DNA of 64,000 bases from Terriglobia bacterium (GTDB lineage: Bacteria; Acidobacteriota; Terriglobia; Terriglobales; Acidobacteriaceae), in assembly GCA_020072815.1 (NCBI GenBank), contig JAIQGE010000006.1:248001-312000 (forward strand), given 5' to 3'. Below, piece after piece: positions 9,264 through 59,343 of this stretch. Each line of letters starts with the position of its first letter. The first letter of the stretch is position 1. Below the pieces are notes generated by a model. The model was not told the origin of the DNA, searched no databases, and saw nothing but the letters and a program-made list of their open reading frames with translations. The translations under genes were made by a program, and so were the position numbers.

Positions 9264-10228
9264 GGTGCGCGTCCTTTCCGTTTCCAGCGTGAGAAGCGTT
9301 TCAAGGCAGAGTAGGCCAGCTAATGAGACGAGGCGAGATGCTAGCTGGTTAGCAGGGGGAGGCGAAATGTTTTGTCATGGTTTGCGGTAGGCGTGTGGCG
9401 AAAGGCGTTCAGCCGCCGGACGGGGCGAGAAGTAGGTAGGGGAGCAGTGCCTGTGCCACACGATCTTTTGGCGCAGGCGAGGGCGCCTGCGGTCCACGCA
9501 GCTTTTGTGGCGCCTGAGATTTTGGGACGATGAACTAGTTCGCGCTGGCGTTGGCGAACAAAATACAGTATAGTAATAAGATTTTCGCAATCGCCAAAAT
9601 GGCGACCGGGTGCGATGGCGCGCCCTGGACGAGATCTTTGACAAATAGCACTCAGCAATTAGCAGTCAGCAATCAGCCACCGCAAAAGGCCGACTCATCG
9701 CAAAATCCGGAGAATCAGTGAGTTAGAAGGAAAATTTACTGGTTGGTTAACAGTTGGGTGACCGTTGGGTCGAATGGAATAAATCCTGTGTTTGCAACCC
9801 GGACCTTAGGGGAGGGGTGGGGTGGGGGAGTAACTGAACGGTGATTGGCGAGATGGTAAACAGATCGCCGGGATCATCGTCAGCGATGCGTTTTTCATCG
9901 GCACAGGCAAGAGTCCTCCACCCCGCCACGCGAAGCGCGCGCCACCATCCCAGATTGCGCAAAAGCGGCGCAATCCGGGAGCCCTGGCGTCGGGGGAGCC
10001 CGATGCTTGTGCCACACGATTCTCGTAACGCAGGCGAGGGCGGCCGGTGGTCCACAAAGGACGAGTTTGGTTTGTCCACGTTGAGACGTAGCGGTGCTAC
10101 GTCTCTACGCTGAGAGTTTGGCATGCCCTGCGTGCGTCTGTGGTCGTCCTATCAACTTCCCGCATCCTCCGCCTTCGATTTACCATCTGGATTTAACATC
10201 TGAAGAGTCATTGAAAGAGAGGTCCCCC
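9264..10228. repeat. Repeat-rich gene-free region, copy 1 of a duplicated module
   Basis: 965 bp without a convincing gene between divergent genes. In order it holds: a short GC repeat (gcaggcgagggcgcctgcgg at 9473); a palindrome gttcgc..gcgaac at 9538-9559 followed by an AT-rich stretch; ctttgacaa at 9636; 7-bp phased units of the type cagcaat at about 9650-9685; a 33-nt block at 9745-9777; a G-rich run (about 9808-9830); a second copy of the GC repeat at 10030-10054; and the hairpin 10083-10105. The same order of the main blocks recurs at 33672-34060. The short open frames here have no family resemblance and I do not call them. Confidence 0.7.
10083..10105. repeat. Perfect 10-bp hairpin
   Basis: GAGACGTAGC, loop GGT, GCTACGTCTC: a perfect stem about 120 bp upstream of the pirin gene. 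It has no following T-run, so it is not an intrinsic terminator. It looks like a dispersed REP-like palindrome. Confidence 0.6.
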
Positions 10229-33560: not shown

Positions 33561-34094
33561 TATTCTTCAAAGTATGTTTTCAGAATTAAGGAAAGAACGA
33601 GTATACGATGCCGAAACATCGGTAAGCGCAATGCGTAAAGGCCAAGGCACCTTTTTTGGCCAGTGTCCTCTTTCGCTGCTTAGCTTTAGCGAACAAATGG
33701 TAAAATAGTCGCCAGGTCTAGCCAATGATACTGGCGAAGAACCGGTCGCCTAGGCGGCCGAGGAAGCTCTTTGACAACTTGAAGCAATAAGCAATTGGCA
33801 GTTAGCAATTCGTCAGATCCGAAGAAGCCCAAGGTTTGCGGTGAGGGACGCTAAGGGTGCAAAGAACCAGTCAGTTAGCTGGCAAATTTACTGACTGGTT
33901 AACAGTTGGGTGACCGTTGGGTCGAATGGCGCAACCCCTTTGTTTGCAACAGAGACGCACAGGGAGGGGTGGGGGTGGGGCTAGCGATATGGTTGTTAGT
34001 GAGAGGGTTACCTTCTTGCCCGCGCAGTAGGACGCAGGCGAGGGCGCCTGCGCTCCACAAAGCGGGAGAAAAACCAAATCGCCGCACGATCCAG
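33561..34094. repeat. Gene-free region, copy 2 of the duplicated module
   Basis: 534 bp with no convincing gene. It holds the palindrome ttcgc...gcgaa (33672-33693) and an AT-rich stretch, ctttgacaa (33769-33777), 7-bp phased units (about 33782-33812), the perfect hairpin AACCAGTCAGT/ACTGACTGGTT (33865-33875 with 33890-33900), a 33-nt block (33897-33929) identical to 9745-9777, a G-rich run (about 33960-33982), and the repeat gcaggcgagggcgcctgcgc (34034-34057). The palindrome-to-ctttgacaa distance is 97 bp in both copies. Confidence 0.75.
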
Positions 34095-49848: not shown

Positions 49849-50296
49849 AAAGCCTGAACAAAATCCTCTACAAACACTCTAAAGTCTAAACAGTTCACAG
49901 CGGGCCTAGCCACCCGCCGCTTTCAATTTTGGCAATTACGGCGATTCTGGCAATTCTGGCAATCTCGCCGGTCACGCGCGATTCCGGCGATCCCCCCGGC
50001 CCATCCCCGTTCATCCCCGGAAAATAAGCACTTAGCTCAAGTCATCCCCGGCGATATCCCCAGGCCCGAGTGGCAGAGGTAATGATCAACCGGTTTGCGC
50101 CCGCTACCTCATAGCGAATTTTAAGCGAAAATAGTCATCTTGGCAATATAAGACTGGAGTCAAAAATTGCCCTAGACGCTGGCACGGACCACTTGCGACC
50201 GCCTGCGAGTCCCGTGAGGCACCGCTTCTCCCGGTTTCAACGCGCTGTTCCTTTGCGTCCTTTGCGTCCTTTGCGGTGAATTCTTCGCCCTTCTGT
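49849..50296. repeat. Repeat-rich gap with 9-bp phased arrays
   Basis: About 450 bp holding two dispersed arrays. The first, 49928-49998, has 9-bp units (acggcgatt, ctggcaatt, ctggcaatc, acgcgcgat, tccggcgat) related to those at 1633-1675 and 1804-1845. The second, 50251-50280, is ctttgcgtc in two tandem copies followed by ctttgcggtg. The rest shows no feature. Confidence 0.6.
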
Positions 50297-58805: not shown

Positions 58806-59343
58806 GTTCTCACCCTTTCCCAACATCAATTGCGTGTCTTGCAGATTGGATGCGACCCGGCTCCGCGAAGGTGCAACGACGCGCCTGGTGGGAGGCTTAA
58901 GGAGTGAGGTAAAAGGGGACCGTGCGTTGTTTGAAAGTCAGCCAAAATCCCGGCGATTGCATCGTTGCCGAACCTGCGATCCTCTGAGCGCCGGAGGCGC
59001 GAAATGAGTTAGCCCAGGCCGGAAGGCCTGGGTAAGGAGGTTATTCAGGATGCAAGCCCCGGAGGGGCGGCACTAAGTTGTTGCGAAACCCGCGAAGCTC
59101 CCAGCGCCGTAGGCGCGATGACAAGTTAGCCCACCCTGAGGCGAGCGAACGCGAAGCCGTAAGGGTGGGTAGGTGGCAAAATGATTTCGAGCGCCGTAGG
59201 TGCGACACATAAATGCGCCGCAGTTCGTGATGCGCGCGGACGACTATGTTCCAGCGCCGCAGGCGCGAAATAATGGTAGCCCAGGCCGTCAGGCCTGGGT
59301 TCGCTTGTTGGGAAAGCACGAGCCCCGGAGGGGCGGCACTGCG
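58806..59343. repeat. Cluster of REP-like palindromes
   Basis: 538 bp without a gene. Between 58987 and 59342 there are about seven short palindromes of two or three types: agcgccggaggcgcga-like (58987, 59103, 59190, 59253), agccccggaggggcggca-like (59054, 59320) and agcccagg..cctgggt or agcccaccc..gggtgggt stems (59011, 59127, 59279). They recur in alternating order. Many are preceded by a cg or ag dinucleotide and followed by ac/aa. No T-run follows, so these are not terminators. The upstream part (58806-58980) has no feature. Confidence 0.75.

Follow-up and report, generated by a model that had tools for sequence, protein, structure and literature searches.

BoxA antitermination is known mainly from rRNA operons, phage operons and CRISPR arrays. 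At the pilE locus of Neisseria, a cis promoter transcribes a noncoding sequence that forms a G-quadruplex (G4), a single locus tied to pilin variation. In Escherichia coli, the recruitment of Nus factors and SuhB by boxA extends beyond rRNA (PMC4807359), and in Legionella a boxA raised the transcript of synthetic CRISPR arrays about 10-fold (PMC7862264). Among dispersed bacterial repeats, REPs are 20-40 bp long (PMC3733652).

The elements described here, two of which lie in the window (the whole 64,000-nucleotide stretch of DNA analysed), have points in common with each of these systems. Like an rRNA operon leader, with its boxB-boxA arrangement and Nus-factor antitermination, they typically carry a YCAG hairpin, a hairpin-to-boxA distance and a boxA sequence as found in the 16S leader of a congener (genome G004); unlike it, they continue into noncoding repeats, have a different promoter and occur in dozens of dispersed copies. 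Like boxA-led CRISPR arrays, they place boxA ahead of a predicted noncoding, repeat-bearing transcript, and they differ from such arrays in their units of 11-bp pitch, the absence of spacers and of a cas link, and their dispersal. Classification as a CRISPR array was rejected, as unique, similarly long spacers between regular repeats are absent. With REPs, MITEs and other dispersed repeats they share an intergenic location, multiple copies, lineage specificity and palindromic parts. They were not classed as REP elements, which are palindromes of 20-40 bp linked to a RAYT, since they span about 300 nt; unlike these dispersed repeats they also have their own promoter and antitermination-type leader, and neither fixed ends nor terminal inverted repeats were seen in them. 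The Neisseria pilE G4 shares the promoter and the noncoding G4 and has no boxA or iterons; it is an analogy only.

The leader and the dispersed repeat are each of a known kind, and their combination is, as far as our searches go, undescribed. Literature searches covering repeats of Acidobacteria, boxA and noncoding RNA turned up no account of such an element. Rfam gave no family at or above the gathering threshold for the elements (whole window, and copy 2 at a relaxed threshold), the phage and plasmid collections gave no match, and neither did an exact 23-mer search of GTDB genome contigs and IMG/VR, from which the source genome and its near relatives may be missing.

A family of dispersed noncoding repeats

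An earlier note on this DNA had described two gene-free gaps that share conserved blocks in the same order. On re-checking both gaps, we found all its coordinates borne out: the two palindromes were re-located, CTTTGACAA starts at 9636 in copy 1 and at 33769 in copy 2, a G-run is present in both copies, and the identical block (9745-9777 in copy 1, 33897-33929 in copy 2) proved one base longer, so that the longest identical run between the copies is 34 nt (Table 1). The spacing of 97 bp from palindrome to CTTTGACAA is likewise exact in both (TTCGC from 9539 to 9636 and from 33672 to 33769); it is not a family feature, and because the palindrome-to-boxA distance ranges over about 73-132 bp among copies with both ends findable, the agreement is a coincidence and reflects no constraint. 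The elements encode no protein, and no scored gene overlaps the core in any copy.

The source genome is a 5.29-Mb draft of 32 contigs, the window lying in contig 6. Here BLAST with copy 1 returned 48 matches, and the conserved 33-nt block occurs in 35 dispersed copies. A sequence profile of 72 positions, made from 29 copies, matched 47 times in the source genome and 31, 29, 25, 20, 6, 2, 1 and 0 times in eight congeners. Five of 100 sampled genomes of the bacterial family had a match, namely the source genome, one congener and three genomes of other genera (3 of 98 sampled, with one match each). The search for further copies in this and related genomes, proposed in the earlier note, was therefore successful, and the profile counts and the family sample together indicate that the repeat was amplified in this lineage. 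The similarity of the two gaps is far beyond chance, and each gene-free stretch is one copy of a dispersed noncoding repeat family about 47 strong.

Table 1. Features of the elements in the window
Feature	Position	Strand	Remark
Copy 1 promoter region; palindrome GTTCGC-n10-GCGAAC at 9538-9559, -10 TATAGT at 9569-9574	9538..9574	+	-35 match weak here
Copy 1 leader hairpin GGGTGCGATGGCGCGCCC, boxB position, 7-bp stem	9608..9625	+	without the YCAG loop of most copies
Copy 1 boxA GATCTTTGACAA	9633..9644	+	matches rRNA leader boxA of congener G004
Copy 1 degenerate 7-bp repeats, AGCAxTC type	9645..9680	+	
Copy 1 conserved core TGGTTAACAGTTGGGTGACCGTTGGGTCGAATGG; 9-bp units, 11-bp pitch	9744..9777	+	
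Copy 1 core hairpin, TTTGTT-TGC-AACAAA type	9787..9800	+	covariation over 42 copies
Copy 1 G-run with G-quadruplex motif	9809..9828	+	
Copy 2 promoter region; palindrome TTCGC-n12-GCGAA at 33672-33693, likely -10 TAAAAT at 33701-33706	33672..33706	+	
Copy 2 leader hairpin GGTCGCCTAGGCGGCC, boxB position	33744..33759	+	present in predicted fold
Copy 2 boxA GCTCTTTGACAA	33766..33777	+	matches rRNA leader boxA of congener G004
Copy 2 conserved core, same as copy 1 over 34 nt	33896..33929	+	
Copy 2 core hairpin TTTGTTTGCAACAGA	33939..33953	+	
Copy 2 G-run with G-quadruplex motif	33962..33980	+	
Degenerate third relative, core subtype C CCGGGGATGA...GAGCTAAGTGCTTATTTTCCGGGGATGAACGGGGATGG, preceded by promoter-like TTCGC...TTCGCTATGAGG	~49930..50150	-	by eye

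The pattern of the degenerate third relative recurs in loci L085 and L099. Separately, an identical palindromic repeat, GCAGGCGAGGGCGCCTGC, is found upstream of copy 1 (9473-9490) and downstream of copy 2 (34034-34051), and similar REP-like units recur near many copies. The window also holds two Acido-Lenti-1 RNAs (RF01687) at 58987-59032 and 59253-59299 on the reverse strand, about 270 bp apart, which suggest that the source genome belongs to the Acidobacteriota.

A predicted promoter and an rRNA-type leader precede the repeats

The copies have a common order: a sigma-70 promoter, a variable leader, a hairpin, boxA, repeats, 9-bp units, a core hairpin and a G-run. The promoter is often TTGAT(A/T)-17-TATNNT, with the TTCGC/GCGAA palindrome covering the -35. 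The mean best promoter score was 8.5, compared to 6.9 (sd 1.07) in shuffles, with a spacing of mostly 17 bp; some copies are without a clear promoter. Similar promoters also precede other core subtypes that share the pattern TAAG(T/C)C(C/T)TTT followed by a G-run.

BoxA-like 9-mers (CTTTGAMAA) were found at -160 to -80 in 24 of 34 copies, compared to 1.4 expected from shuffles and one on the reverse strand; the other ten had no recognisable boxA in this interval. Because SSU rRNA is absent from the draft, the operon used for comparison was that of congener G004, which has a 16S gene. Its 16S leader reads CCGC-TCAG-GCGG, then 15 nt, then GGTCTTTGACAA, and the element leaders match it in the YCAG-loop hairpin, the distance to boxA and the boxA sequence itself. 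The stretch preceding the 23S gene of the same genome contains GCCGC-TCAG-GCGGC and, farther on, GATATTTGACAACTGAATAG. As noncoding repeats follow boxA in the elements and rRNA genes do not, they are leader-like without being rRNA operons.

The earlier note had proposed a check for compensatory base changes, and these were found in two hairpins, that of the leader and that of the core. For the former, we collected 36 boxA sites with YCAG at most 32 nt upstream, the G004 16S leader counted in; sites were chosen by the loop alone, and the null was obtained by re-dealing the 3' arms among copies in 5000 rounds. Mean stem pairing was 4.36 bp, compared to 1.88 bp (sd 0.23) after re-dealing, and none of the 5000 rounds reached as high, in a set of related copies whose changes, like those counted in the core hairpin, are non-independent events. 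As the stems differ in sequence between copies (CCGC/GCGG, CGGC/GCCG, ACCC/GGGT, CGTC/GGCG), the pairing reflects compensation. A further 18 boxA sites lack the YCAG loop; the two window copies are among them and have other hairpins at this position. This hairpin before boxA, which the earlier note did not name, is the best-supported RNA structure of the element.

Repeats, core hairpin and G-run

Downstream of boxA lie degenerate repeats of 7-9 nt (7-mers and 9-mers), which are very different between copies. Repeats resembling the element 7-mers, of the types AGCTACT, AGCTTTC and AGCTGC, were also observed in the 16S-23S spacer of G004 (L103). The core is made up of one to about six 9-bp palindromic units standing 2 nt apart, which gives the 11-bp pitch. 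Units of the GGGTSACCG type occur in 35 copies of the source genome, and those of the CGGTSACCG type in other copies and in congeners; GTTGGGT-type units are confined to the source genome.

The core hairpin, TTTGTT-TGC-AACAAA, shows compensatory changes over 42 copies, one pair being UA in 17, GC in 10 and UG in 9. The paired-arm region that had been listed among the shared blocks fared less well: arms of the form AATCAnnnnGT / ACnnnnnnGT before the core gave a small excess only over partner shuffles (6.69 compared to 6.35 bp; 28/5000), and this stem was dropped on that weak support. Plain RNAalifold on a 170-nt core alignment returned almost no structure, and the folding energy of the whole element was mildly below that of shuffles (z of -1.4 and -1.7), which is unexceptional. 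In 25 of 33 copies the sense strand has a canonical G4 motif, and no copy has one on the antisense strand; among random 60-mers the motif occurs in 0.13%. No defined 3' end or downstream terminator was found for the elements.

A predicted antiterminated transcription unit

The further copies, the covariation in two hairpins and the failure of the IS-remnant alternative (see below) support the original reading of the gaps as a selected structure, either an RNA or a miniature element. From the sequence features, we consider it rather likely that every copy forms a noncoding transcription unit of its own, with an rRNA-type antiterminated polymerase running it. RNA polymerase would start at the copy's own sigma-70 promoter, where a protein bound to the palindrome that covers the -35 may act as a gate. 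Transcription of the leader hairpin and the rRNA-operon-type boxA would follow, and Nus factors would convert the polymerase to an antiterminated, Rho-resistant form able to continue through untranslated, repeat-rich DNA with its 9-bp palindromic units, small hairpin and G4-forming run. The leader and the core would be kept, while the remainder would turn over by repeat slippage and inter-copy exchange, and the family would multiply within the lineage as a non-autonomous repeat.

We infer that the elements are transcribed and that Nus factors act on them, and suppose that what selection maintains is either the RNA or a structure that forms at the G-run upon transcription. The likely use of boxA here is to take polymerase through structured DNA that is not translated. 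If so, either this bacterium maintains many additional antiterminated units for unknown RNAs, or a selfish repeat makes use of the rRNA machinery. Far more tentatively, the family might be a new class of spreading element, a dispersed noncoding RNA gene with a captured rRNA antitermination leader, by which rRNA-type polymerase complexes would transcribe dozens of chromosomal sites through palindromic iterons and a G-quadruplex, with the species-specific iterons read by a partner.

Turnover and the possibility of a DNA repeat

The gap occupied by copy 2, between an FMN-dehydrogenase gene and a sigma-54/PilZ gene, is 534 bp long here and 22 bp in G003, and the matching gap of G002 has a small ORF and no element; both genomes are too distant for base-exact junctions at this site. 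This absence at matching sites, the lineage-specific amplification and the species-specific cores, with GTTGGGT-type units in the source genome only, are what a non-autonomous mobile or selfish DNA repeat of MITE type would give, its promoter and leader being baggage or serving its own spread and its RNA having no host role. However, all-against-all comparison revealed a mosaic homology, in which pairwise matches have no common ends. No terminal inverted repeats, target duplication of the element's own or sharp ends were seen, and a DNA transposon has no need of a covarying RNA hairpin. We regard such a repeat as possible though doubtful, and favour selection on the leader and core, to which a selfish-repeat component is added, rather than a pure DNA repeat.

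Among the compared loci, the pair L087/L044 is the only one with clear flanks shared between the source genome and another, the element there being reversed and of another subtype. Turnover could be followed in an orthologous pair beside a universal-stress-protein-like gene, L106 (G030) and L120 (G005); G030 is assigned to a different genus, and the contig in question may be a stray from a closer relative, which leaves the comparison valid. In windows of 60 columns, the adjoining coding DNA is mostly 90-100% identical. The stretch running from the hairpin to the end of boxA has one mismatch and the core an identity of 98-100%, and the difference between the two iteron blocks is exactly one 11-bp unit. 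The 7-mers vary freely, one copy has a module of about 200 nt inserted at its G-run, and from a point just before the promoter the upstream flanks bear no relation to each other.

Such flanks, swapped at the promoter while the element stays, and the module inserted at a G-run would also suit a transcription-coupled DNA site, in which the promoter would open the palindromic iterons and the G-run, as an R-loop or a G-quadruplex, into a recombination or protein-binding site for accessory-gene exchange. The restriction of the G4 to the sense strand, the odd palindromes with a central S at 11-bp pitch, which suit a DNA-binding protein, and the preference of IS1595 for these elements (see below) point the same way. 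By itself, however, this proposal leaves the conserved rRNA-type hairpin and boxA unexplained, and we consider it unlikely.

Gene neighbourhood

Neighbouring genes were called by a simple codon-usage gene caller. The next downstream gene is convergent in 24 of 35 copies, copy 2 included, and most copies are therefore not mRNA leaders. A 5' leader controlling the downstream gene, as an attenuator or antitermination leader of an mRNA, would suit copy 1, which lies upstream of a co-directional pirin gene, and the 11 of 35 copies whose next gene is co-directional; with the majority convergent and neighbours that have no common function, we judge this very unlikely. At the site of copy 1 by pirin, G002 (L076) has, by eye, a reverse-transcriptase-like gene, which suggests that this spot is variable.

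Many orphan genes are found among the neighbours, and some neighbours look defence-like. Upstream genes of the latter kind (L006, L019, L022, L034) comprise a Schlafen AlbA_2 protein, the end of a type IIG restriction enzyme, a KAP NTPase and a piece of a methyltransferase; because these proteins were hand-picked, no enrichment of defence genes is claimed. In L014 and L021, paralogous small genes (open frames of about 150-190 aa) with no Pfam match lie about 300-950 bp upstream of the core.

IS1595 as an invader

The notion that the elements are IS or MITE remnants, to which their high copy number, intergenic location and lack of an ORF would be congenial, and which the earlier note had named as fatal to its own reading, is highly improbable, as IS1595 copies interrupt elements of this superfamily and end inside them, with 8-bp duplications where both ends were read, making the elements older targets, while no match was found in phage or plasmid collections or Rfam and no transposase gene was seen that has element sequences on either side for its ends. 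Eight of the 11 IS1595-family transposases in the source genome lie inside elements of this superfamily (L092-L096, L098, L099 and L138, on G000 contigs C21, C6, C2, C7, C12 and C13), at differing positions within elements that have the G-run. The target preference of IS1595 for these elements is strong, and it offers a handle on target choice in the IS1595 family. Three of the 8-bp target duplications were read: GAGATAAG, GACCATTG and GTTGGAGG. Only one copy (L018) was found to have a Y1 transposase next to it, and a similar one stands, by eye, beside L024.
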